A DNA stretch of 33,038 nucleotides, from assembly GCA_002839645.1 (NCBI GenBank), contig PGYL01000031.1, positions 1 through 33,038 of the forward strand. The letters run 5' to 3'. A model generated the notes under the pieces. It did not search any database, was not told the DNA's origin, and saw only the letters and a program-made list of their open reading frames with translations. Positions 13,286 to 33,038 of this stretch are shown here, piece by piece. Source of the stretch: Methanomicrobiales archaeon HGW-Methanomicrobiales-2. GTDB lineage: Archaea; Halobacteriota; Methanomicrobia; Methanomicrobiales; Methanoculleaceae. How positions within the stretch are numbered: position 1 is the first letter of the stretch; each line of letters begins with the position of its first letter. Both the position numbers and the translations under genes were made by a program.

Positions 13286-16200
13286 TCAAACCAGATTGAA
13301 CGCGCGCTCTGTCATTTCGTATGGCCGGACGGTGACGCCATCCGCTGTCTTGAACGTGGCGTTCCCGACGACCTTCACTTCGTACGTCCCAATCGACATA
13401 TACCGGAAGGTGTGGGGGGTAACCTCGCCGGTGTTCTTGTTGTAGAGATAGATCTGTGCGCCGGCGGGCTCGCTGGTCACGTTCAGGCTGCCGTAGGGGT
13501 AGGCCTCGAGCCGGAACGTGAGGTGTTTATCAGTCTCGGTTTTCGGGTCATCGGTGAGCAGGATCTCCTGCTCGGCCGGCAGGTAACCCTGGCGGGTGAC
13601 GGTGACGACGTGCGGCCCGTCCGAGATGTTCCTGATGAGGTAGGGCGTGCAGAGGCCGGTCCTGAAGCCGTCTACCAGGATCTCGGCGCCCGCTGGGCTC
13701 GACTCCACGAGCAGACCGCAGCAGGTGGCGTCCCCGGGCGTGATCGTGACCGTTTCCCCTGTCTCGGTCACGGTGATCCGATGGGAGAGGTAGCGGTCGC
13801 CGTCATTGACCGTGATGAACGAGTTCCCGCCGGCCACTTCGATCGTCCGGGGCAGCCGGAAGACCGGCCCCTTACCGTTTACGGTACATCCTTTGCCCAC
13901 GTAATCATCCGACGAGAGAGATACCTTCCGAACGATGGTCTGCTCATGCGTTTCTATCAGGACCGGAGTGATGCAGTCTCTCTCTACCCATACCGTCTTT
14001 GTCGGGGTGTTGAATGACTGGCCTTCCTTGACTACCTGCACCGTATGGCTCCCTTCCCTGATGCCCAGGGCGACATGGGGGGTCGTGAATGCCATCTTCT
14101 TCCCGTCGATGCTGATTGTGGCTCCTGATGGCTGGGATGTGATGTATATGCCGCCGGTTCGGTCCTGCTCAGGCTCCGTCTGCGGGTCGCCGAACTTCAG
14201 GCGGTTAAGGACGGTGTAGCCGTCGGCGGGGGGGAGATCCGCGAACAGCGCCGTATCGTCCGGGACCGTGACGGTCGCTTCGTACGGTGCGAACTGCTCC
14301 AGTTCAAGGTGGAGGGTGTGGTCTCCGGGACCTATGGGGCTGATGGTTGCCGGAGTGACTTTCCCGAGGTACGTGTCGTCAAGGTGGATCCGCGCGCCGG
14401 CAGGATTTGAACTGACCGTGAGTGTCGCCGGCAACGGCGTGGCCACCCCGTAGATCCCGAATCTCTCGGGGTATGCCGTCACCGTTCCGTTTGTGAGGTT
14501 GATCGTGGTGGCGACCTGCTGCCAGGCAGCTCCAGCGGCATCGTAGCGGTACCATACCGCGTCAGGGGTTGCCTTTCCGTGCGCCGTCATCACGAATGGC
14601 AGCGATGCCGTTGCATTCTCCGGGCCGATGCGGTACGCCCGCTCCATTGCGGTTCCTGGAACCGGGGGAAGATCTGTTACCGCCCGGATCATCCCCGATG
14701 TCACCGCGGCCGCGGTGCCGTTGATGACCCGGCAGCCTTTCGGGAATATGAGCGATAGGGTTTCATCCCCGGTGCGGTAGCCCAGTTCTTCCTCCAGCAC
14801 GCCTGCGGTGTTGTGGGGCAATACGAACGACCCGATATCCTCTTTTGCAGTCACGGTGTCGGAAGAGATCTCAATCCCGGAGGATCCTTCCTCTCCCCCG
14901 TACCGGACGACCAGGATGGCGTTCCGGTTCTGGAGGTGGTCGCCGGCGGTGCCGACCGGATAACTCTGTACCTCTACGATGTTCTCCGATGCCTTGATGA
15001 AGGGGAGGACATCTAAGGCAGCGGTCCAGACCCCGGCCGGCCCTTCCTGCAGGGGGTTGAGCCAGTCCCAGGTGTTCAGCACCACCCGGTTTCCTATGCC
15101 GCCCCGGTCGGATTCAGCCGTGCTCACGATGTAGAGTCGGGCTGCTGATGCCCGATCGCGATCGATGGTTCCATCGAACGTCGTTTTTGTGGCGGCGTCT
15201 TCTTCGGTCGTCCCCTCCCAGAGGTCTGCGAGGACATCGTCGCACCCTTCCCCGATCCGGTAGTCTATCCGGGGCATGGCGGGGTCGCTGACGACAAGCA
15301 CCAGGAGGGCGGCAGGTATCCGGCAGGTGACCTTCGACTCTCCATCTGCCTGCACCGTCAGTGTATGGTCGCCGTTGGCGAGCATCTCCGGCGGGAGCTC
15401 CAGGGTGAAGGTCCCGGCCATCGAAGCCGTTCCGGTTCCCTGCCGGTCCCACGATGCGGCCGCGGGCGTGACCGGCTTGCCGTCAAACCCGAAAACCGGC
15501 TCGAACTCGGTTCCGGCGCCTGTCTTCGCCTCCGTTGCGTTGCTCACGTAGACGTAGAGGAGGCCGCGGTCGACCGTGGCGCCTTCGGGGACGGCGACGG
15601 GAATCCGTATGGTCGACGGAGACCCGACTGTTAACGGTTCTGTCGGCCCGGATGCGGTGAAGGCGTGGAGGGTGCCGTTGATGGAGCCCGTCGTCGATGC
15701 GTTCAGCGTGCCGCCCCTGATGCCCGACCCCCCGGATGAACCGGCGCTACTTCCGCTGCTGCTGCCTCCGCCGCCGGACCCACCCGTATCGCCGCTACTC
15801 CGGGTGCCCTGGACCGAGTAGCCGCTCACGCCTGTCTCCGCGAAACCGGTGAGGTCGTTCGACCATGAGATTCCCCTGCCCTGGTTGGACTGGTTGCACC
15901 AGCCGTATGCGTTGAAGGCCGCAAACGTCTCCATGTTCTCAAACGAGTACTCGATCTTCGCGCACCCATCGTCAGTCAGCCCGTCAAGGAAACTGTTCGG
16001 GCCCAGCGCGCCGACGCCGAGGTCGATGAACATGATGTGGAACCGGTCTTCCGGATTGTTCCTGCTCATGTCTTGCCCGTAGTAGATCGGGTAATTCGCC
16101 TCCCGGCAGGGCTTCCAGGTCTGCGGCGCGTAGATGAAGTCTTCCCTGGTGAAGACCCGGTCGGTGAAGCCTTCGCTGTACGCGATCTCCTCCATGGCCG

Positions 16201-16621
16201 GAGGCTGGTTCAATACCGGGGTCGGTGTCCACTGGTAGCCGCTTGCTTTGACGTGGAGCTTGAAGTCGTCGGGGACCTCTCCCTGCACCGCCACCATGAG
16301 GATGAGGTCGTCGAAGAACCCTCGCCCTCCCGTGTCGGAGAAGTAGAACGTTCCCGATTGGCTGCTGGTCTCCGTCACCTGACCGTAGCGCTCGGACGGG
16401 TCGGTCGTGATATGGAGGGCGTTGAGTCCTCCGCCGTCGAATTTGATGTAATTATCCCCGCCGTTTGCCATCGTGATATCGATGTGCTTGTAGTCGGGGA
16501 GGGTGATCCCTCCAAAGTCGGCTGCTGCAGCAGGTGCGGCGATGAGCCCGACGAGGAGAGCGAAGACGATGATCGTCTCCCGCCACCCTGCCCGGCGCAT
16601 GTGTGGGTTGTTTTTCATCAC
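13286..16621 (-). CDS. Secreted surface protein: unnamed repeat-family domain, DUF3344-like, four PEGA repeats
   Basis: An exported protein of 1111 residues. After the signal peptide (about 12-34) comes the domain shared by five genes here (about 35-265: GGGLNALHITT, SGTFYFSDTGGRGFFDD, SGYQWTP, PIYYGQD, GISWSN). A Gly/Ser linker (about 267-303) leads to a DUF3344-like region (about 325-580, with IDYRIGEG and AILVVRYGG). Four PEGA-type beta repeats follow near 727-787, 820-883, 965-1025 and 1041-1104. No membrane anchor or sorting tail is seen, so it may be released or held by its PEGA or partner contacts. GTG at 16621 is followed directly by an ATG at 16618; GGAG lies upstream of both. A hairpin sits before the ribosome binding site. 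Confidence 0.9.
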   Translation of the reverse strand: MMKNNPHMRRAGWRETIIVFALLVGLIAAPAAAADFGGITLPDYKHIDITMANGGDNYIKFDGGGLNALHITTDPSERYGQVTETSSQSGTFYFSDTGGRGFFDDLILMVAVQGEVPDDFKLHVKASGYQWTPTPVLNQPPAMEEIAYSEGFTDRVFTREDFIYAPQTWKPCREANYPIYYGQDMSRNNPEDRFHIMFIDLGVGALGPNSFLDGLTDDGCAKIEYSFENMETFAAFNAYGWCNQSNQGRGISWSNDLTGFAETGVSGYSVQGTRSSGDTGGSGGGGSSSGSSAGSSGGSGIRGGTLNASTTGSINGTLHAFTASGPTEPLTVGSPSTIRIPVAVPEGATVDRGLLYVYVSNATEAKTGAGTEFEPVFGFDGKPVTPAAASWDRQGTGTASMAGTFTLELPPEMLANGDHTLTVQADGESKVTCRIPAALLVLVVSDPAMPRIDYRIGEGCDDVLADLWEGTTEEDAATKTTFDGTIDRDRASAARLYIVSTAESDRGGIGNRVVLNTWDWLNPLQEGPAGVWTAALDVLPFIKASENIVEVQSYPVGTAGDHLQNRNAILVVRYGGEEGSSGIEISSDTVTAKEDIGSFVLPHNTAGVLEEELGYRTGDETLSLIFPKGCRVINGTAAAVTSGMIRAVTDLPPVPGTAMERAYRIGPENATASLPFVMTAHGKATPDAVWYRYDAAGAAWQQVATTINLTNGTVTAYPERFGIYGVATPLPATLTVSSNPAGARIHLDDTYLGKVTPATISPIGPGDHTLHLELEQFAPYEATVTVPDDTALFADLPPADGYTVLNRLKFGDPQTEPEQDRTGGIYITSQPSGATISIDGKKMAFTTPHVALGIREGSHTVQVVKEGQSFNTPTKTVWVERDCITPVLIETHEQTIVRKVSLSSDDYVGKGCTVNGKGPVFRLPRTIEVAGGNSFITVNDGDRYLSHRITVTETGETVTITPGDATCCGLLVESSPAGAEILVDGFRTGLCTPYLIRNISDGPHVVTVTRQGYLPAEQEILLTDDPKTETDKHLTFRLEAYPYGSLNVTSEPAGAQIYLYNKNTGEVTPHTFRYMSIGTYEVKVVGNATFKTADGVTVRPYEMTERAFNLV

Positions 16622-16715: not shown

Positions 16716-19700
16716 TCAGGTTCTCCTCACGAAGAGGAGGAACCCGAAGGCCAGAATCGCCGCCCAGACCGGGAGCGGGGACGCCTGCGGCGTGGGGGCG
16801 CTTCCGGCCGTCTGAGCCGCTGCTTCTGCCTGGGCCGGTGATCCCGTTGCGGTGGGCTGCGGGGTCACGTCGCCGGTCGCGCCGGTGGCCTCCCCGGTCA
16901 CCGCGATCGCAAAGAGGCCGAACCCGTTGGATGCGGCGGAGAAGACGGCGTTACCGTTCTCCTCACCGAGCGCCTCGACCGGGATCGCCTGCCATGCACT
17001 GTCGGCGTACCGGAACGGGGTGACCTGGTCTGCCGTGCAGCCCTGCGCCGCGAGCCAGGAGGCCGGGACGGCGAACCGGAGCTGGACGGCGGCGAGGTCT
17101 GCCTCAGACGCCTTGTAGAGGGTGGCCTGGACGTACTGGTAGACCGTGCCCGCCGGGGGCTCTGCAGCCTGCGGGAGGGAGCCTTTGGCGACGGTCACCA
17201 TGAGGTCCTTGACCGCGTTGTTTGTCGTCACTGTGACCGCCGAGACTGCCGTCATCCGCATCGGGAGGGTGGCGCTCTCGCCGGGCTTGAGGTTGCTTGC
17301 CGCCCCGACCGCGGTCGAGGTGCCGCTGCTGCTGCCGGACGGCGAGGAGGACCCGTTAGCCTGCGGCGCAGCCGTGGCTGCGGCCAGACCGAAGATCGAG
17401 AGGCCGTTCGGCGAAACCGCCTCAAAGACCAGGTTTCCGTCGGCATCGGTGCCGACGAGCGTCGTCGCGAGGACTTCCTTGGTGCCGTCCTCGGCGGACC
17501 GGATGATCCGGATCGCGTCAACGCCGCCGTGGGCGGTGACCCATGCGGGGCTGACCGCCATCCGGATGGTGGCGCCGGCGATGTCCTGGCCGTTATCGAG
17601 GTTCGTCTTTACGATGTTCAGCGTGTAGGCGACGTCGCCGAGGGCAAGCCCGTCGGCGCTGGCGGCGAGCTGGAAGGCGCTCTGTGCATCGGCGGAGACG
17701 TTCTGCGAGACGGTCGTCGTGAGGCCGGCTCCCTGCGGGATGCCGGTCAGGTTCGCCGAGACGGAGGCGCTGACCGTGCCGACTGAACCGAGCTCGGTGA
17801 CGACCGGGTTCGTGTCGAGCCTGATGTTCGCGATCGTCCCGTTCACGGTGCCGCTCTCATTGGTGGGAGCGCCCTCGGTCTCGATGATGAGAGTGAAGTT
17901 GCCCTCAGCGATCCGGATGGTGTTTCCGGCGACGGTTGCGTTGGCCGCGGTGGTGTTGATGCTGACCTGCGGCCTGCCGTCGTTGCCCGTGGTCACGTTG
18001 CAGCCGGGGATGTCGAGGGGGGTGTCCTGGGTCTGGTCGCCCTGCGGCCGGGTCACGGTGACGACGGCGGTGCCCGTCACGTTGCCGCACGCGGCGGTGA
18101 CGGTCGACGTGCCGACCTTGCGGGCGGTGAAGAGACCGATCTCTGCATCCACCGTGCCGACGGTCTCGTTCGAACTGGTCCAGGTGACGGTGACGTCATC
18201 TATCACGCCCCCGTCGGTGTCGTAGACGGCCGCGGCAAACGCCTGCGTTGCCCCGACTAGGAGTTCCGCTGTCGGCGGGGTGACGACGATGCTGGCGGGC
18301 TGCGGGGTATACGGTTCGGTGACGACGATGTAGCCGGTCTTCACGGCGGAGTCGCTGCCGCCGCCGTTCGTGACTGTGAGGTTGACCGTGTAGTTACCTG
18401 CGTCTGCATACGTGAACGTTGCATTCCGCTCGGTCGAGTCAACAGTGCCGTCGTCCTCGAAGTCCCAGGCCCAGGAGGTTGGGGAACCGCTGGAGGTATC
18501 GGTGAACAGGACCGCGAGGGGAGCGTCGCCGCTGGTGACGTTCGCCGTGAAGTTCGCGATCGGTGCGTCTCCGCCGGATGAACCGTCGCTAACCGTCACC
18601 TCGACGGTATCGGTTGCCCCCCCCGAAGCGGCAGTCACGGTGGTCGTCCCGGCGGCAAGCGCTTCAAAGGACCCGGTGATCTCATTCACGACGCCGACCG
18701 TCGTATTGCTGCTCGACCAGAGTGGCCCGATGTCAGCAAGTTTCTCGCCCTGCGGGTCGAAGAGCTCCGCGGTGAAGATCCGGCTCTCGCCCACGCCGAG
18801 AGTCGCAGAGGACGGCGAGATACTGATGCTCTCCACATCGATGATAGTGAGGACGTGATAGTGTTCCGGCGGGGAGATGAGCGGGTGGTGGTCATAGACA
18901 GTAACCACTTCTCCGGAGGCAATCTTTTCCTCGACAAACGGCGTATCGCCTATGCCGTCGCCGTCGGAATCCGTGCCGGTGTACGTGCTATAGTAATTGC
19001 CGAGGTACCCGGTGTGGGTGGTATTCGCATACGTGTAGGTGACGGGGGTCATGGAATTGAGCGACGGCATCCCCACTTCGACAAGACCCCATTCGGTCGA
19101 CTGGGTTCCCGTGAAATTGTTCAGCCAGACCTTGAAGTAGGTCAGGCGGTACGCATAGAGTCCCGTGCGAGCGCCGGCGATGATCGTGTTTCCCCGTAAG
19201 TCGGCATTACTAACATCACTGGCCTGGATCGCATGCCGGCTGCCCCCGGTGATCCTGTTATCCAGTACCGAGACATTCCGTGTATTAGAAAGCAAGACAG
19301 TTATCTGACCGCCGGAGATCGAATTTCCTTCGATATGCACGTCCTCGATGTTGCTATAAATACGCAGTGAAATGCAATTGGTAGAACTGCCGGTCGACTC
19401 AATGGTATTGCCGATGACGGTCATATTGTTGGAGTTGGTCTGAACGTTGATGCCTATTGATGTAACTGATACGGTATTATTTTCAACGATATCGTCGCTT
19501 GAACCGGTGATCATGACCCCGTTTTTTTGAGAGGTGATCACGTTGCTTTTGATCGCCGAATAGTTCCCGGGATGCAGATAGATACCGTATTTCGTTCCGA
19601 TGCCGGTGATGACATTGTCCTCGATGACGCAATTTTGGTAGCCTGAACAGTCAATTCCGTTCCCATTGGCATTCGCGATGCCGAGGCCTCTGATGGTCAC

Positions 19701-22388
19701 GCCGTCGGATGCGATCGTGAAAACGGGGTTGCTTACGGACGGAGATACGAGAGTGTTCTCCGGACCGTTCGCCGAGATAATGGTCAGCGACCGATTGACG
19801 ACCACGCATTCGGGGTAGGTTCCGTTCCTGACGATGATCGTGTTCCCATCGCCGGCGTGATCCACCGCATCCTGGATCGTCAGGAAGTCACCCGCACCGG
19901 TGGCATCGACGTAATAGGTGCCCTCGGACTGGGACGCCGAGACCGTGATGTAATCCGTTTTTACTTCGGAGTTGCTGCCGCCGCCGTTCGTGACCGTGAG
20001 GTTCACGGTGTAATTACCTGCGGCTGCATACGTGAACGTCGCATTCTGCTCGGTCGAGTCGACAGTGCCGTCGTCCTCGAAGTCCCAGGCCCAGGAGGTC
20101 GGGGAACCGCTGGAGGTATCGGTGAACTGGACCGCGAGCGGGGCTTCCCCGCTGGTGACGTTAGCGGTGAAGTTCGCGATCGGGGAGGTCGACTGCCCGA
20201 GATAAATATGAGTGCTGCTCATCAGGGGAGCATCATCAATCTGATTCGTGACCAGTGAGTAAGAAGTATCGCCTATGCCGTCTCCATCGGCATCCGTACC
20301 ATTGTAGGTATTCCAGTGGTTGCCCAGGGCCTTCGTGTAGGACGAACCCTGGTAGGTATAAGCGATCTCCTGCGGGGTGACCCACGCGAACGCTGCAGCA
20401 GCCGGTCCCTGCAACTTTACGGGAACGACCCCATCCGGCACGACAAAGTCGTTGAGGTAGATTTTGTTACCCGCTTTAATCTGGGATTGGATGAGTATGC
20501 AGGGCATATCATTGTCGCTGAACGAATTATTGCAGATGACGGCACCCCCGCAGGCAGCCATGCGGATGACTCCTCTAAGGGTTGCCGTTGACGTGGTATT
20601 CGTGAAGGTGTTGTTCTCGATGCGGCTGCCCGTACCGCTTGCCATATAGAGCAGGTTGTACACATTGTTGTTTCTGAACGTATTGTCGATCAGCGTGTTG
20701 TTTGTCAGACCCAGGAAGACAGATCCCGCGGCAGTACCCGGATTTTTCATGTTCTCGAAGATGCAGTTCCTCACGGTCACGTTTGTGGGTGGGACAGAAA
20801 CCCCGCCGCTGCTGGAGAAATACAACAGCCCGTTGGTGAACCGCACGCTTTCGACAATCGTCCCATTCCCGCTGATCCGCATCGTGTTTCCACCCAGATC
20901 CAGCGTTACGATCTCCGCTCCTTCACCGGTGATCGAAACGGGCTTGATTACTCCACTGACGGCATAGGTACCATTGTAAACGAAGATGGTGTCTCCCTCG
21001 ACCACCGACGAACTGCCGAGAGCATCGGCCAGCGTTACGAAGTCGCATCCGCTCGCTCCCACGGTCCATGTCCGGGGTTCGGGAGGCCCGGCCGGCTCGG
21101 TGACGGTGATGTAGTCGGTCTTGATCTCGGAGTCGCTGCCGCCTGCGTTGGCGACCGTGAGGTTGACTGTGTAAGTGCCGGCGGTCGTATAGGTGAACGT
21201 GGCGTTCTGCTCGTTGCTGTCGATCATGCCGTCGTCCTCAAAATCCCACGCCCAGGAGGTCGGGTCTCTCGTAGAAGCATCGGTGAACGCGACCGCGAGC
21301 GGAGCGTCGCCGCTGGTGACGTTTGCCGTGAAGTCCGCGACCGGTGCGGAGGACACTCCGGTCACTAGATAACTGCTGGAGTTAGTGCCTGTGACCCGGT
21401 TCGTCCAGGAGATCCCTTCTCCTGAAGATGCCGCGAGGCACCATCCATAGCCGTTAAAGGCAGCCGTGGAGGTCAGGTTGGTGAACGTGAACTCGATCTT
21501 CGCCCCGCCGTTATTGGTCAGGGTCGCGTCTGTAAAACTACCCGGATACATATGCCCGACGTTCAGGTCGATAAACATCAGGTATGCCGCCGTCGTTGTG
21601 TCGTTAATGTCCTGGCCGTAGTAGAGCGGCAGGGATGGGACAACGAGATTTCCCGGCCCCGGTTTCCAGGTCTGCGGGCCGTAGATGAAGTCTTCCTTCG
21701 TGAAGGTCTCATCGACCGCCCCTTCCACATAGGTGTAGTCTGTCGGCAACGCAGTTGCATTCGATGGAGGTGTCCAGGTATAGCCGCTTGACTTGATATG
21801 GAGGGCGAAGTCGTCCGGAATCGTGCCGTTCACCGAGACCAGGAGGATCACATCGTCGTAGAAACCTCGTCCTCCGTTATTGGTGAGCCAGAACACACCT
21901 GACTGGTCGTTGCTGACAGTGACCTGTCCCAGTGGAGTGTCCACGTCGTTTGTGATCCGGAGTTCGTTCAGGCCGCCGCCGTCCGCCTTGATGTAGTAGG
22001 TGCCGTTCGGGCCGCCGTAAGCGGTGCCGTCCAGGTCGTACTTCACGCCGGCGTTGTTAGCGACTTCGAAGAAGATATGCCGGGGTGCCGGGAGGGGCGC
22101 GGATTCTGATGCGCTGATGCCGACAGACTCCGGCAACGGTTCGGTTGCTTCCGGTGTCACCTCTTCCGCGACCGTTTCGGTCGGTGTCGGTTCGGGTGTA
22201 CCGTTTTCCTCCGCACCGAGGCCTGGCGGTATCTCGTCGGGAACCCCAGCAATCGGTTCTGTTGTGTTCAACGTCAGGTCGGTGCCCCCCAGCGCCACCG
22301 CCGGTACGGCGATGAACGCGAGGATCAGCAGCAGGACGGCTATCCGCCCCTGCCACGGGCTGGTTTGAAGAAGTCTATCCCCTGTCAT
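16716..22388 (-). CDS. Giant surface protein: shared domain, PKD, beta-helix, Big_2, PGF-pre-PGF-like, membrane anchor
   Basis: An exported protein of 1890 residues. Order: signal peptide (about 15-33); Thr/Pro/Glu-rich linker (40-95); the shared unnamed domain (about 105-340, ending GISWTN); PKD1 (347-432); beta-helix 1 (438-720); PKD2 (733-815); NosD-like beta-helix 2 (823-1170) ending in a DSDGDGIGD calcium-type loop; Big_2 (1180-1265); PKD3 (1273-1357); Big_2 (1360-1445); a Thr/Asn-rich beta region (1450-1690); a PGF-pre-PGF-like domain (1700-1830, KDLMVTVAKGSLP to FGLFAIAV); a Pro/Thr/Ala linker; and a C-terminal SPLPVWAAILAFGFLLF segment with FVRRT end. The tail looks like an anchoring or sorting signal. 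Many N-x-S/T sites suggest glycosylation. Likely adhesin or S-layer-associated protein; ligand unknown. Confidence 0.9.
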   Translation of the reverse strand: MTGDRLLQTSPWQGRIAVLLLILAFIAVPAVALGGTDLTLNTTEPIAGVPDEIPPGLGAEENGTPEPTPTETVAEEVTPEATEPLPESVGISASESAPLPAPRHIFFEVANNAGVKYDLDGTAYGGPNGTYYIKADGGGLNELRITNDVDTPLGQVTVSNDQSGVFWLTNNGGRGFYDDVILLVSVNGTIPDDFALHIKSSGYTWTPPSNATALPTDYTYVEGAVDETFTKEDFIYGPQTWKPGPGNLVVPSLPLYYGQDINDTTTAAYLMFIDLNVGHMYPGSFTDATLTNNGGAKIEFTFTNLTSTAAFNGYGWCLAASSGEGISWTNRVTGTNSSSYLVTGVSSAPVADFTANVTSGDAPLAVAFTDASTRDPTSWAWDFEDDGMIDSNEQNATFTYTTAGTYTVNLTVANAGGSDSEIKTDYITVTEPAGPPEPRTWTVGASGCDFVTLADALGSSSVVEGDTIFVYNGTYAVSGVIKPVSITGEGAEIVTLDLGGNTMRISGNGTIVESVRFTNGLLYFSSSGGVSVPPTNVTVRNCIFENMKNPGTAAGSVFLGLTNNTLIDNTFRNNNVYNLLYMASGTGSRIENNTFTNTTSTATLRGVIRMAACGGAVICNNSFSDNDMPCILIQSQIKAGNKIYLNDFVVPDGVVPVKLQGPAAAAFAWVTPQEIAYTYQGSSYTKALGNHWNTYNGTDADGDGIGDTSYSLVTNQIDDAPLMSSTHIYLGQSTSPIANFTANVTSGEAPLAVQFTDTSSGSPTSWAWDFEDDGTVDSTEQNATFTYAAAGNYTVNLTVTNGGGSNSEVKTDYITVSASQSEGTYYVDATGAGDFLTIQDAVDHAGDGNTIIVRNGTYPECVVVNRSLTIISANGPENTLVSPSVSNPVFTIASDGVTIRGLGIANANGNGIDCSGYQNCVIEDNVITGIGTKYGIYLHPGNYSAIKSNVITSQKNGVMITGSSDDIVENNTVSVTSIGINVQTNSNNMTVIGNTIESTGSSTNCISLRIYSNIEDVHIEGNSISGGQITVLLSNTRNVSVLDNRITGGSRHAIQASDVSNADLRGNTIIAGARTGLYAYRLTYFKVWLNNFTGTQSTEWGLVEVGMPSLNSMTPVTYTYANTTHTGYLGNYYSTYTGTDSDGDGIGDTPFVEEKIASGEVVTVYDHHPLISPPEHYHVLTIIDVESISISPSSATLGVGESRIFTAELFDPQGEKLADIGPLWSSSNTTVGVVNEITGSFEALAAGTTTVTAASGGATDTVEVTVSDGSSGGDAPIANFTANVTSGDAPLAVLFTDTSSGSPTSWAWDFEDDGTVDSTERNATFTYADAGNYTVNLTVTNGGGSDSAVKTGYIVVTEPYTPQPASIVVTPPTAELLVGATQAFAAAVYDTDGGVIDDVTVTWTSSNETVGTVDAEIGLFTARKVGTSTVTAACGNVTGTAVVTVTRPQGDQTQDTPLDIPGCNVTTGNDGRPQVSINTTAANATVAGNTIRIAEGNFTLIIETEGAPTNESGTVNGTIANIRLDTNPVVTELGSVGTVSASVSANLTGIPQGAGLTTTVSQNVSADAQSAFQLAASADGLALGDVAYTLNIVKTNLDNGQDIAGATIRMAVSPAWVTAHGGVDAIRIIRSAEDGTKEVLATTLVGTDADGNLVFEAVSPNGLSIFGLAAATAAPQANGSSSPSGSSSGTSTAVGAASNLKPGESATLPMRMTAVSAVTVTTNNAVKDLMVTVAKGSLPQAAEPPAGTVYQYVQATLYKASEADLAAVQLRFAVPASWLAAQGCTADQVTPFRYADSAWQAIPVEALGEENGNAVFSAASNGFGLFAIAVTGEATGATGDVTPQPTATGSPAQAEAAAQTAGSAPTPQASPLPVWAAILAFGFLLFVRRT
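18321..18566 (-). repeat. PKD-encoding repeat, copy 3 in protein order
   Basis: Encodes PIANFTANVTSGDAPLAVLF through the end of the third PKD domain. Over about 130 bases of its 3' plus-strand half it differs from the copy at 19941-20186 at about nine positions by eye count, which is closer than expected for unrelated PKD domains. Confidence 0.75.
19941..20186 (-). repeat. PKD-encoding repeat, copy 2 in protein order
   Basis: Encodes the second PKD domain (SWAWDFEDDGTVDS core). Near-identical in DNA to the 18321-18566 copy, suggesting internal duplication or gene conversion. Confidence 0.75.
21101..21345 (-). repeat. PKD-encoding repeat, copy 1 in protein order
   Basis: Encodes the first PKD domain (SWAWDFEDDGMIDS core). 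Shares the same layout and long matching runs with the other two copies but is the most divergent of the three. Confidence 0.7.
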
Positions 22389-22800: not shown

Positions 22801-23025
22801 TCACAGCGCCGCAATCTTCCCGACGAAGTAGTATGCGATCTTTGCCGCATCGCCGATATCGACCGCACCGTTTCCGTTGAAGTCCGCGGCAGGATCGGCA
22901 TCCGTCTTCCCGACGATCATATAGGCGACTTTCGCGACATCGCCGATATCGACGACGCCGTTTTCGTTGAAATCACCCTTTGAGCTCGCCGGAGGTGTGC
23001 CGCAGACATACCAGCCGCTGAGCCA
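22801..23025 (-). pseudogene. Out-of-frame dockerin module of the adjacent surface protein gene
   Basis: Reading the minus strand in the +1 frame relative to the gene at 22973-25288, bases 23025-22801 encode 74 residues plus a TGA stop. They contain WYVCGTPPASSKG followed by two calcium-loop repeats, DFNENGVVDIGD and DFNGNGAVDIGD, each followed by an AYxxVGK helix end. This is a type I dockerin, known from archaea as well as from cellulosomes, where it binds a cohesin. No start codon or ribosome binding site is apparent, so it should be read as the C-terminus of the upstream gene. Skipping one base in the overlap (about 23024-22978) gives a single 828-residue protein ending at 22801. Confidence 0.85.
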
Positions 23026-25288
23026 TCATCGTCTCGAGTTTCTCAATCGTATAGTTCACCCTCACCGGATGGCCGGGAAGAGTACCGGCCTTGAGATCGA
23101 TGAACATCATCCGGAACTGGTTCGATGCGTCGCCGACATCATGGCCGGGATAGATCAGATATGTGGTGCCTGCCGCCGGTCGCCAGGTCTGCGGACCGTA
23201 GCACAGATCGTCTTTCGTGAACCATTCGTCGACCGTCGGATTCACGTAGGTACGATTCTCAGGTGTGGGGATGTTGCGAGGGGCCGGAAGCGGCGTCCAC
23301 TGGTATCCGTCTGCATGGATGTGCAGGCGGAAATCGTCGGGGATGGTTCCGTTCACTGCTACGCACAGGAAGATATTGTCAAAATAACCCCTGCCGCCGG
23401 TCGTGGTGACGTAGAAGGTTCCGGACCGGTTAGGAGTCTGTGTCACCTCGCCGTATTCGGTGCCCGACCCGTTCGAGATGTGCAGGGCGTTCAATCCGCC
23501 GCCGGACCAGAGAATACGGAATGAGTTGTCGCCAAAATCGTCGAACCGGACGCCTGCATCGTTTGCAACCCTGAGGTGGACGTCGTCGACTGCGGGGATG
23601 ACTCCCCCTGTCGGGGTCTCCGCACGCTGGATGGTCACGTGCGCGGTTCCCGACACCCCGCCGCTCGTGGCGCCGACCGTCGCCGTCCCGGCCTTCAGGG
23701 CCGAGAAATACCCGGTTGCATTCACCGTGCCGACCGTCTCGTCGCTGCTCGTCCAGGTGAACTCGGCGCCCGGGATCTCTGCGCCTTCCCTGTCGGACAG
23801 TACGGCGGTGAACTGCAGGCCGTCGCCCGCCGTCAGGGACACGTTGTCCGGGGTGACGGTAACGATGCGGCTGCTCGGTTTGACGATGGGGTAGTAGTCC
23901 ATCTGGGTGCCTTTGACGGTATACGGCTCATCGCCGATCCCATCGCCGTCGGAGTCAGGCCCGACGTACCGGTCCCAGTAGTTTCCGACGTAGCCTGTTC
24001 GGGTGACGTTGTCGAAGACGTAGGTGATCGGCTCCGTCGAGTTCCAGGAGGCGCTCGCGCTGTTTACCACAATATCCCCGGCATTATCCTGGACTGTATT
24101 GAGGTAGAAAAGATTGCCGTAGGTATTCTGCATGAAGATTCCGCTATAGGTGGACTGTTGTTGGATGGTGTTTCCAACGATAGTGTTGTCGCTTGAACCG
24201 TCCGCAAGGAACAGACCGCACGTTCCATTCGTCATCGTATTGTTGACGACTTCGATGTCTTGCGTGCGATATCTCAAAAAGATCGCCCATTCGCATTCGG
24301 TCAGTGTATTACCCAGGATTTTCACACGATAAGAATATTGATTATCTGAATCGGAAATGCGGATTCCGAAGTTGCAGGAAGTGAGAGTATTCCCTGATAC
24401 CAGATCCGATTCCGCCCTCTTCAGGTCGATGCCTGCGTCGGACATTGTATCCAGCGTATTGTTCAGAATCCTGTTTTCTCGGGTATCTGCCATACCGATG
24501 CCGATGTTTGATGTGGAGATGACGTTGTACTCAACAGTGCATCCGCTGACGCCCGACAGAGATACGGGTGCTGCACCTCCGGGAACTCCCCGGATCGTCA
24601 GTCCTGAAATGGTTGATCCGTTTGCCACAAGGGAGAATACCGGAGTACCCTGACCTGTGGGGATTACGATCGTCTCCTCAGGTCCGCTCTCCGAGCGGAT
24701 TGTCAGTGCCTTATCTATGGCGATATTTTCTGCATAATTCCCCTTGCGTACGATGATCGTATCGGATGGTCCTGCAGCGGCCACGGCGGCACCGATGGTC
24801 GTGTAGTCCCCTCCCCCGGAAGCGTCGACGATCCAGGTGTGCGCCTCTGCCGTTATAGTCTCCGTCGACGTTATCGGCTCGGGCATCGAGGTAGTTACGG
24901 TTACATCTGCGGTTCCGAACACCACACTGCCCGGGATGCCGGCGCTGATTGTCGCGAACCCGGGTGCGAGCGCCGTGAAATAGCCGGTCTCGTTCACCGT
25001 TCCGACGGATTCGTTGCTGCACGCCCAGGAAAACGCTACTCCGGGAATGATTGAATCCGATGCATCGTATGCCGTGGCAGTGTATCGTTGCATGCTGCCC
25101 TGCGCCATTTCGGCCGCTGCCGGCGTCACATCGATCCTGGCTACCTCCGGCGTCCCGGCCGATCCGGTTGCGTTTGACGGCAGGTCGGCATCCAGTGCCG
25201 CCGCCGGCCCGGTGCCGAGCACGAGGATCAACAGCACGGGGATGATCCCTCCCCGCAATCTTCCGGTTCGAATACCACTATCTACCAT
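22973..25288 (-). CDS. Surface protein: Big_2, NosD beta-helix, Big_2, shared domain; C-terminus frameshifted before dockerin
   Basis: As it stands 771 residues, exported. Order: signal peptide (about 12-32); Big_2 (48-130); NosD-like beta-helix (155-470) with INNTL/GNTL-type turns and a DSDGDGIGDEPY calcium-type loop; Big_2 (478-560); the shared unnamed domain (575-755) with GGGLNALHIS, GTFYVTTTGGRGYFD, DGYQWTPLP, YGPQTWRP and MMFIDL. The last 16 or so residues (from about LVCLRH to the stop) match nothing in the family, and the +1 frame instead continues the domain as WYVC and runs into a dockerin. The gene is therefore frameshifted, misread or recoded near 23011-23024. ATG at 25288. Intact, it would be a scaffold-docked surface protein. 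Confidence 0.85.
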   Translation of the reverse strand: MVDSGIRTGRLRGGIIPVLLILVLGTGPAAALDADLPSNATGSAGTPEVARIDVTPAAAEMAQGSMQRYTATAYDASDSIIPGVAFSWACSNESVGTVNETGYFTALAPGFATISAGIPGSVVFGTADVTVTTSMPEPITSTETITAEAHTWIVDASGGGDYTTIGAAVAAAGPSDTIIVRKGNYAENIAIDKALTIRSESGPEETIVIPTGQGTPVFSLVANGSTISGLTIRGVPGGAAPVSLSGVSGCTVEYNVISTSNIGIGMADTRENRILNNTLDTMSDAGIDLKRAESDLVSGNTLTSCNFGIRISDSDNQYSYRVKILGNTLTECEWAIFLRYRTQDIEVVNNTMTNGTCGLFLADGSSDNTIVGNTIQQQSTYSGIFMQNTYGNLFYLNTVQDNAGDIVVNSASASWNSTEPITYVFDNVTRTGYVGNYWDRYVGPDSDGDGIGDEPYTVKGTQMDYYPIVKPSSRIVTVTPDNVSLTAGDGLQFTAVLSDREGAEIPGAEFTWTSSDETVGTVNATGYFSALKAGTATVGATSGGVSGTAHVTIQRAETPTGGVIPAVDDVHLRVANDAGVRFDDFGDNSFRILWSGGGLNALHISNGSGTEYGEVTQTPNRSGTFYVTTTGGRGYFDNIFLCVAVNGTIPDDFRLHIHADGYQWTPLPAPRNIPTPENRTYVNPTVDEWFTKDDLCYGPQTWRPAAGTTYLIYPGHDVGDASNQFRMMFIDLKAGTLPGHPVRVNYTIEKLETMMAQRLVCLRHTSGELKG

Positions 25289-25682: not shown

Positions 25683-26498
25683 CTAGATGCTGATCGCCCA
25701 GCCGCTGCTGCCGGTGCCGATAATCCTGTTCGTCCAGGAAATTCCCTGTGCCTGAGCCGACTGGTTGTTCCATGCGTAGGCATCGAAGTAAGCAACGCCC
25801 TCGTCATACCCTGTGAGGCAGTAATCGACCTTTACCGTCCCGCTGTCCACAAGGCCGGTCTGGTTGACCGATCCCGTGTACAGGTCGATGAGCATGATCT
25901 TGAACTGCTCGTTAACGCCCATGTCCTGGCCGTAATATATCGGATAGTCATCAAGAGGTGCAGGTCTCCACGCCGACGTCCCAGGCCGGAAATCGGCGCT
26001 CACAAACGTTTCGCTGAGCGTGAGATCGTGATAATAGCCTCCGTCAAGCACCGGCTTGCTCCCGTCTCCTGTCGGCGCCCACTGGTAGCCTGACGCGTTT
26101 ACCAGCAGATTGAGGTTTGAGTAAGACGCCTCAGCCGGCACCGCAAACAGCAGTATCACGTCGTCGTGGTACTGAGTATCCGTGCTGGTGTCGGAGATGT
26201 AGAGCGTGCCTGAAGCCGACTGGCCGGTGTATACGGCGCCGTTGAGGCTCGATGGGCTGTCGGTGATGTGTATCGCATTCAGTCCGCCGGTAGGCTTTGT
26301 GAAGTTGAAATAGTACGTGTCGTTTCCGAATATGTCGAATCTCGCTCCGGCATTGTTCGACACGGCGGCATATGTCTGGTTGTTGTCCGTGAAGACATCG
26401 TTGTCCGCGGAAACCGGCACGATGCAGACGGCAAGCATCAGCAGAATTGCCGATGCCGTCATTGCACCGAGTCTCATCGTTTTTCCATTGCTCTGCAT
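25683..26498 (-). CDS. Secreted stand-alone copy of the shared unnamed domain
   Basis: A 271-residue protein consisting of a signal peptide (residues 1 to about 31, ending PVSA) and one copy of the shared domain: NNAGARFDIFG, GGLNAIHIT, SGTLYISDTS, HDDVILLFAV, ASGYQWAP, SAWRP, YPIYYGQD, MLIDL, YAWNNQS and GISWTN. It ends soon after the domain, with no anchor, dockerin or sorting tail, so it is the minimal form of the family. I chose ATG at 26498 because it opens directly onto the signal peptide; the frame continues upstream to 26621 but that stretch has no export or domain character. The TATA-like element at about 26629-26637 suits a leader of about 110 bases. Confidence 0.85.
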   Translation of the reverse strand: MQSNGKTMRLGAMTASAILLMLAVCIVPVSADNDVFTDNNQTYAAVSNNAGARFDIFGNDTYYFNFTKPTGGLNAIHITDSPSSLNGAVYTGQSASGTLYISDTSTDTQYHDDVILLFAVPAEASYSNLNLLVNASGYQWAPTGDGSKPVLDGGYYHDLTLSETFVSADFRPGTSAWRPAPLDDYPIYYGQDMGVNEQFKIMLIDLYTGSVNQTGLVDSGTVKVDYCLTGYDEGVAYFDAYAWNNQSAQAQGISWTNRIIGTGSSGWAISI

Positions 26499-27178
26499 GT
26501 CAATCAACTCTTTTCCGTGATTGTAGCCGCGTCGTCTGACGGTCGGGCTACTGCCGACAGAAGCCGGACGAAAAAGGTAACTAACAATCATGAATATTCG
26601 GCCGCTGTCAACACCTTGCATTGGGTGGGTTATAATACAAATACTTTACGTTTATCGATTCGTACCGAATATTCCTGTGATCAGGCCATCTAGATGAAAC
26701 AATATTGAATAACCGGAAAAATATTGGAATATCCTCTGCTTCGAGAGGCAAGGATTCATATATTACAATGATCCGCCGGGTGGAGGATCGCGCACACGCC
26801 GCAATTTGCTGGCACGTGACAGATGCTTGCTATACGGCTCTGTTTCTTCTGCCCGGGTTTTTTTCGCAGCGTGCAGAACAATATTGTCGATGGGGCATGG
26901 CATCGCAAGCCCGGATCAGGTCACCGGACGGCCTCTCATTTTCAGCACCGGATCGGGTGTCATCGCGCCATCTGGTACTTGCCGATAAATACGCCTGTCA
27001 CCGTCGGAAAACCTGTGACGTCCTCAAAACCGATAGATCTCGAAGTGAATATCTTTGGGGTACGGCCGCAGGAGACCGCCCGTATTCGGAGCAGGCGTCG
27101 TTAACCTGTCTTAATTAACTCCTCCTCAACTGACAAGCGTCATATAGCATCCCCGCCCACGTTTTTCCAGGAATCAGC
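26499..27178. other. Divergent intergenic region with possible coding remnant
   Basis: About 680 bases between divergent genes. On the minus side TTGTATTATAACC (26628-26640) is a TATA candidate for the gene at 25683-26498. On the plus side CATATAGC (27141-27148) may serve the MoxR gene, with AGGA just before its ATG. Between them two plus-strand frames look protein-like but are broken: one reads QVTGRPLIFSTGSGVIAPSG up to a stop near 26989, and a second continues NTPVTVGKPVTSSKPIDLEV to a stop at 27104. This could be a decayed gene; I cannot name it. Confidence 0.3.
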
Positions 27179-32298: not shown

Positions 32299-33038
32299 AT
32301 GGAGTCCGGGAGAAGAGTCGTACTGGCGGTCGTCGTGCTCGCGGCGGTTGTCGCCGTGTCGTTCCTGATCGATACGGCCGTCTCGGGGGCCTATGAGACC
32401 GGTTCGACTGATCATCTCCTGCAGACTGCGGCCATCGATCGCTACGATCTCCGGTATGGTCCCCAGCCCTGGCGGCCCTACGCCACACCAATCGCGATCG
32501 GTCCGGGCGACCTCCCCTCCGGGAGCTGGTACCTCACTTTCGTGAACCTGGGGGTGGTGCCCGTCGGCGGGAACCCGGCCCTCGCGCGGACTGGCTCGGT
32601 CAGGGTCGATTACCGGTTCACGGATCTCGCCGGAACGGCATCGTTTGGCGTCTACGGTCTCCATGCCGGGGATGGCAGGGCATGGACGAACCGGCAGTCC
32701 GGCTACGGCACCTCCGGTTACTACGTCTCCGGGGCCGCTGCATCCGGCGACCCGCCGCAATGGGCGACTCCTCTCCCGGAAGGCGACCGGTATGTCGTTG
32801 AGGTGGCGGGTTCCCCGCGCCCGATCGACGAGGATGCGGCCCGGAATACCCGCACTCTCTGGTTCGAGCGGCTCAAATCTGGCCTGGACGGGCTCCATAT
32901 CACCACTGATCTTGCGGCCCGAAAAGGGCAGGTGACCGAGACTGACGATCTTGAGGGCTCGTTTTATGTTACGTATACCGGCGGCAACCGGGTAGGAGAC
33001 CTCTTTCTGATGGTCGCCGTGGACCGGCCGCAGCCGGA
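32299..33038 (+). CDS. Surface protein with swapped halves of the shared domain (partial, runs off window)
   Basis: At least 246 residues; the 3' end lies beyond the window. It opens with RR and a hydrophobic stretch (about 7-24), a signal peptide or signal anchor. The next part (about 45-145: PQPWRPY, SGSWYLTFVNL, VRVDYRFTDLAGTASFGVYG, GRAWTN) corresponds to the second half of the shared domain. Then come about 65 residues and a segment (about 195-246: SGLDGLHITTD, GQVTETDDLEGSFYVTYTGG, GDLFLMVAV) that corresponds to the first half. The order is the reverse of that in the four other genes. ATG at 32299, two bases after the TiaS-like gene. Confidence 0.8.
   Translation, partial: MESGRRVVLAVVVLAAVVAVSFLIDTAVSGAYETGSTDHLLQTAAIDRYDLRYGPQPWRPYATPIAIGPGDLPSGSWYLTFVNLGVVPVGGNPALARTGSVRVDYRFTDLAGTASFGVYGLHAGDGRAWTNRQSGYGTSGYYVSGAAASGDPPQWATPLPEGDRYVVEVAGSPRPIDEDAARNTRTLWFERLKSGLDGLHITTDLAARKGQVTETDDLEGSFYVTYTGGNRVGDLFLMVAVDRPQP

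Follow-up and report, generated by a model that had tools for sequence, protein, structure and literature searches.

Noncellulosomal cohesin-dockerin modules are known from archaea (Peer et al. 2009, cited in PMC9012536). Archaeal type I dockerins of this kind form the C-terminal part of secreted surface proteins, have two calcium-loop repeats and occur in genomes that also encode cohesin proteins, traits shared by the case described here. The window, a 33,038-nucleotide stretch of contig PGYL01000031.1 from Methanomicrobiales archaeon HGW-Methanomicrobiales-2, contains a surface-protein gene followed by a dockerin in another reading frame. This seemingly striking hidden dockerin looks like the terminal part of a gene whose counterpart in a sister species is intact, i.e., an ordinary frame-broken gene or a draft error. 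The features concerned are as follows.

22973..25288, minus strand: truncated surface-protein open reading frame (ORF) of 771 amino acids, with Pfam matches to NosD, Beta_helix and Big_2
23021..23581, minus strand: first 187 residues of an uncharacterized domain of ~230 residues, in frame (81% identity to the sister-species orthologue over residues 1-187)
23021..23022, minus strand: junction at which 92 bp of the orthologue are absent (DNA alignment, tblastn gap and predicted structure)
22973..22975, minus strand: premature TGA met by the upstream frame
22804..23025, minus strand: open dockerin frame of 74 codons, with stop codon TGA at 22801-22803 and without a start codon ahead of the first repeat
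22831..22980, minus strand: Dockerin_1 module with two calcium-loop repeats, GDFNENGVVDIGD and ADFNGNGAVDIGD (Pfam profile and PDB dockerin matches)

An intact dockerin outside its gene's frame

The 771-amino-acid ORF encodes a signal-like N-terminus, Big_2 domains, NosD/beta-helix repeats, a shortened uncharacterized beta-rich domain and an out-of-frame tail (QRLVCLRHTSGELKG). The truncated product ends in LVCLRHTSGELK at the TGA at 22975-22973, and an earlier note on this DNA had correctly described this end as a nonsense tail. Past this TGA, the +1 frame reads ...SGWYVCGTPPASSKGDFNENGVVDIGDVAKVAYMIVGKTDADPAADFNGNGAVDIGDAAKIAYYFVGKIAAL* and stops at 22803-22801, where the same note had placed the end of the dockerin.

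The Dockerin_1 profile (PF00404, type I) matched this frame with 26.4 bits, compared with a curated cut-off of 22.9 bits, and with 25.2 bits in a genome-wide search. As read from the sequence, both repeats (DFNENGVVDIGD and DFNGNGAVDIGD) have aspartate or asparagine at calcium-loop positions 1, 3, 5, 9 and 12, and the solved structures nearest to the dockerin in a PDB comparison include dockerins. A segment that is 79% identical is found in frame in the sister species. Because of this identity and the Pfam score above the cut-off, the dockerin cannot be attributed to chance, and the proposal of an intact two-repeat type I dockerin lying one frame off a surface gene was borne out. No ATG, GTG or TTG was found ahead of the first calcium loop in the dockerin frame. 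With no start before its first repeat, the dockerin cannot be produced in the ordinary way.

An orthologue with 92 additional base pairs

An orthologue was found in Methanoculleus sp. EBM-46, a sister species, on MPOY01000574.1 (identical in sequence to contig G018:C268 of our genome set). Its 884 codons form one open frame that continues through the same dockerin to the end of the gene. The orthologue has the same domain order as the window gene, is 77% identical to it over residues 321-757 and is flanked on both sides by related neighbor genes, as in the window. It differs in that the 92 bp are present and the frame is intact. Comparison with homologues from related methanogens, which had been proposed as a check, therefore returned a dockerin-bearing gene in one frame, and the view that an intact dockerin forms part of this gene is supported by an orthologue that is whole through the dockerin. 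The ancestral state is based on this one close orthologue, the only one found, and on the wider domain family.

DNA alignment of the window with the orthologue indicated a net loss of 92 bp between 23022 and 23021 and was clean up to both gap edges. The loss corresponds to 30 conserved residues at domain positions 188-217. A single-base indel, as originally suggested, is ruled out by the 92 bases absent from this alignment. The single-base reading looked exact because 92 is 2 modulo 3, and for the same reason the frame is restored when a further base is removed. The resulting count of 829 codons is right when the stop codon is included and the count runs to 22801, but not when it runs to 22803 (25288 to 22801 is 2488 bases). 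Closing the frame in this way would still leave a damaged protein, as the 30 residues, including two predicted strands, are gone. Similarly, the motif WYVC, thought to continue the family domain, matches GWYVYG of the relative, but only past the 30-residue gap. Slippage via the near-repeat TTCAACG/TTCAGCG of the orthologue was rejected, since it would remove 90 bp in frame rather than 92.

The missing 30-residue stretch is kept by the other domain copies compared, i.e., those of relatives and of the window paralogues at 13286-16621, 16716-22388 and 25683-26621. Among tblastn matches in these relatives and paralogues that start near the first residues of the domain, nearly all pass position 210, and only gene 22973-25288 ends at position 187. 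In an AlphaFold model from 15 sequences (mean pLDDT of 71.8, with the dockerin part not confident), the absent residues represent most of a predicted strand at 185-194 and the whole of another at 205-209. A fold search with the truncated domain gave nothing significant in the PDB.

The domain of ~230 amino acids, which has no Pfam family, is common to four neighboring genes (window positions 15803-16447, 21219-22076, 23021-23581 and 25692-26372). A further copy may lie at the edge of the window, where the plus strand gave weak matches (32446-32760 and 32881-33036).

Real deletion, draft error or recoding

We favor, with a probability of about 0.6, a 92-bp deletion ahead of the dockerin that is real and present in the living genome, as judged from one draft of the species. 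The ancestral gene would have encoded a secreted methanogen surface protein with a beta-helix, Ig-like repeats, the beta-rich domain and a C-terminal type I dockerin, probably tethered at the cell surface through a membrane-anchored cohesin. Loss of 92 bp immediately ahead of the dockerin would have taken two predicted strands from the last domain and shifted the frame. The present product would then carry a 15-residue nonsense tail in place of the dockerin and might be released or degraded.

The ratio of nonsynonymous to synonymous substitution (dN/dS) was 0.21 for the dockerin and 0.23 for the in-frame domain, a weak test, as most of the divergence is older than the break. Because constraint on the dockerin equals that on the in-frame domain, the break appears to be recent or a draft error, in agreement with the earlier note, as is the lack of visible decay in the dockerin repeats.

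A draft-assembly error, in which the gene is intact in the living genome and 92 bp were dropped during assembly or gap closing, is the less likely but still plausible alternative. The draft is in 69 contigs and contains short, odd-length N gaps; one of these, a 6-N scaffold gap at C6:33039-33044, marks the end of the window itself. Stretches smeared by homopolymers occur on contigs C4 (at L125:3465) and C19 (at L040 ~2880-2990); the latter breaks a second dockerin gene, with ~30 bases absent compared with relatives. The undecayed dockerin would also fit an error. Nevertheless, the junction itself is clean, without N or smear, and any repeat flanking it is too short to misdirect an assembler. 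Only one homopolymer run of 4 was found in 240 bp there, and the longest exact match between the 45- to 50-base stretches at the two edges, taken from the orthologue, is 4 bp. Misassembly via shared dockerin repeats was rejected, the longest exact match among the genome's modules being 29 bp; between the window dockerin and its two closest C19 modules, exact matches are 16-23 bp. Furthermore, no excess of frame breaks was seen across the draft: the rate among sampled genes (4/86) was not above that of a single-contig relative (6/86), although this comparison rests on a small sample and a noisy method.

The single-contig relative G029 also has a split dockerin gene (L085, 10032-11182), in which a frame-broken body is followed by an intact terminal dockerin, as in the window gene. 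Breaks of this kind therefore occur within the genus. The G029 gene differs in its S-layer/PKD-type body, which has several breaks; its terminal part, comprising PKD and dockerin, is intact.

Other regions of the draft show features of their own. The second out-of-frame dockerin (C19:11007-11156; L040:3008-3157) is out of frame with a preceding short gene; its break zone at L040 ~2880-2990 has dense homopolymer runs and is ~30 bases shorter than in relatives, and this break is probably a sequence error. On C4, L125:3465-3575 contains stretches in which C or G is repeated tens of times; these are almost certainly an assembly artifact and mark the local quality of the draft. A GC-rich repeated element (GGCGGGGGAGGAGGCCGGAGGCCGGGCGGGGTGGGG with a GACAGGGGAGGGGG hairpin) is dispersed in the genome (L127:11660, L132:15785, L134:18810 and 19140, L137:4950, L138:9955 and L146:1155).

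Dockerin-ending surface genes of the lineage might lose and regain the docking module through frame-breaking changes. Out-of-frame dockerins account for two of six in this genome, and another occurs in a relative. This idea of loss and regain is very improbable; if true, such changes would act as a slow on/off switch, gradually remodeling the set of surface-anchored proteins.

Recoding and phase variation, both raised by the earlier note, are not supported by comparison with the relative, which reads straight through, or by inspection of the junction, which lacks a repeat tract. Programmed +1 frameshifting would fuse the two frames into a dockerin-bearing protein. The frames overlap by ~50 bases, and the product of +1 slippage at GGG|TGA would be ...KG-DFNENG, but Gly from both readings of GGGT is a consequence of the code. 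The frame break is not conserved in the sister species, which needs no shift, and a fused product would still lack the 30 conserved residues and two predicted strands, making frameshifting very improbable. In phase variation, a reversible length change would switch the dockerin on and off, as might be imagined from a module that is intact yet in the wrong frame and from the other out-of-frame dockerin gene in this genome. However, the junction has no simple-sequence tract, homopolymer or repeat, and with 92 bp lost and the segment found nowhere else in the draft assembly, reversion is not readily possible; this explanation is extremely unlikely. There is next to no chance that the dockerin frame is expressed on its own as a small gene, since its 74 open codons have neither ATG, GTG or TTG ahead of the first calcium loop nor a signal peptide, and the same segment is the C-terminus of a large protein in the relative. 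Neither a hidden gene nor recoding thus appears to account for the out-of-frame dockerin, as the orthologue reads through and the dockerin frame has no start.

Cohesin partners and known archaeal dockerins

The cohesin partner predicted to lie elsewhere in the genome has two candidates, both matching PF00963 on C19 (41 and 30 bits). One is in a 252-amino-acid protein with a C-terminal hydrophobic segment, predicted to be membrane anchored, and the other is in a 1,965-amino-acid protein, which has a dockerin at its own end. We infer that the window dockerin bound one of these two cohesins. The ancestral role was likely the docking of a beta-helix protein onto a surface cohesin, by analogy with the role reported for such cohesin-dockerin pairs, including those of archaea, in PMC9012536.

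The two cohesin genes are clustered on C19 (L040:3682-15361) with a gene for a 259-amino-acid protein of similar layout but without a Pfam match, and the cluster is preceded by a gene for a subtilisin-like S-layer protein with a terminal dockerin. The region is probably a surface-docking locus.

In Pfam profile searches, 29 of 35 Methanoculleus genomes had a dockerin, whereas a recognizable cohesin was found in 11 of 35. Either divergence has put some cohesins beyond the reach of the Pfam profile, or many dockerins pair with something other than a cohesin. The far wider occurrence of dockerins raises a question for archaeal surface assembly.

The window module differs from other archaeal type I dockerins in being out of frame with its own gene. 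Lacking also a start codon of its own, it is not translated within a secreted protein. The window gene is, nevertheless, a member of the known archaeal dockerin kind, in frame-broken form.
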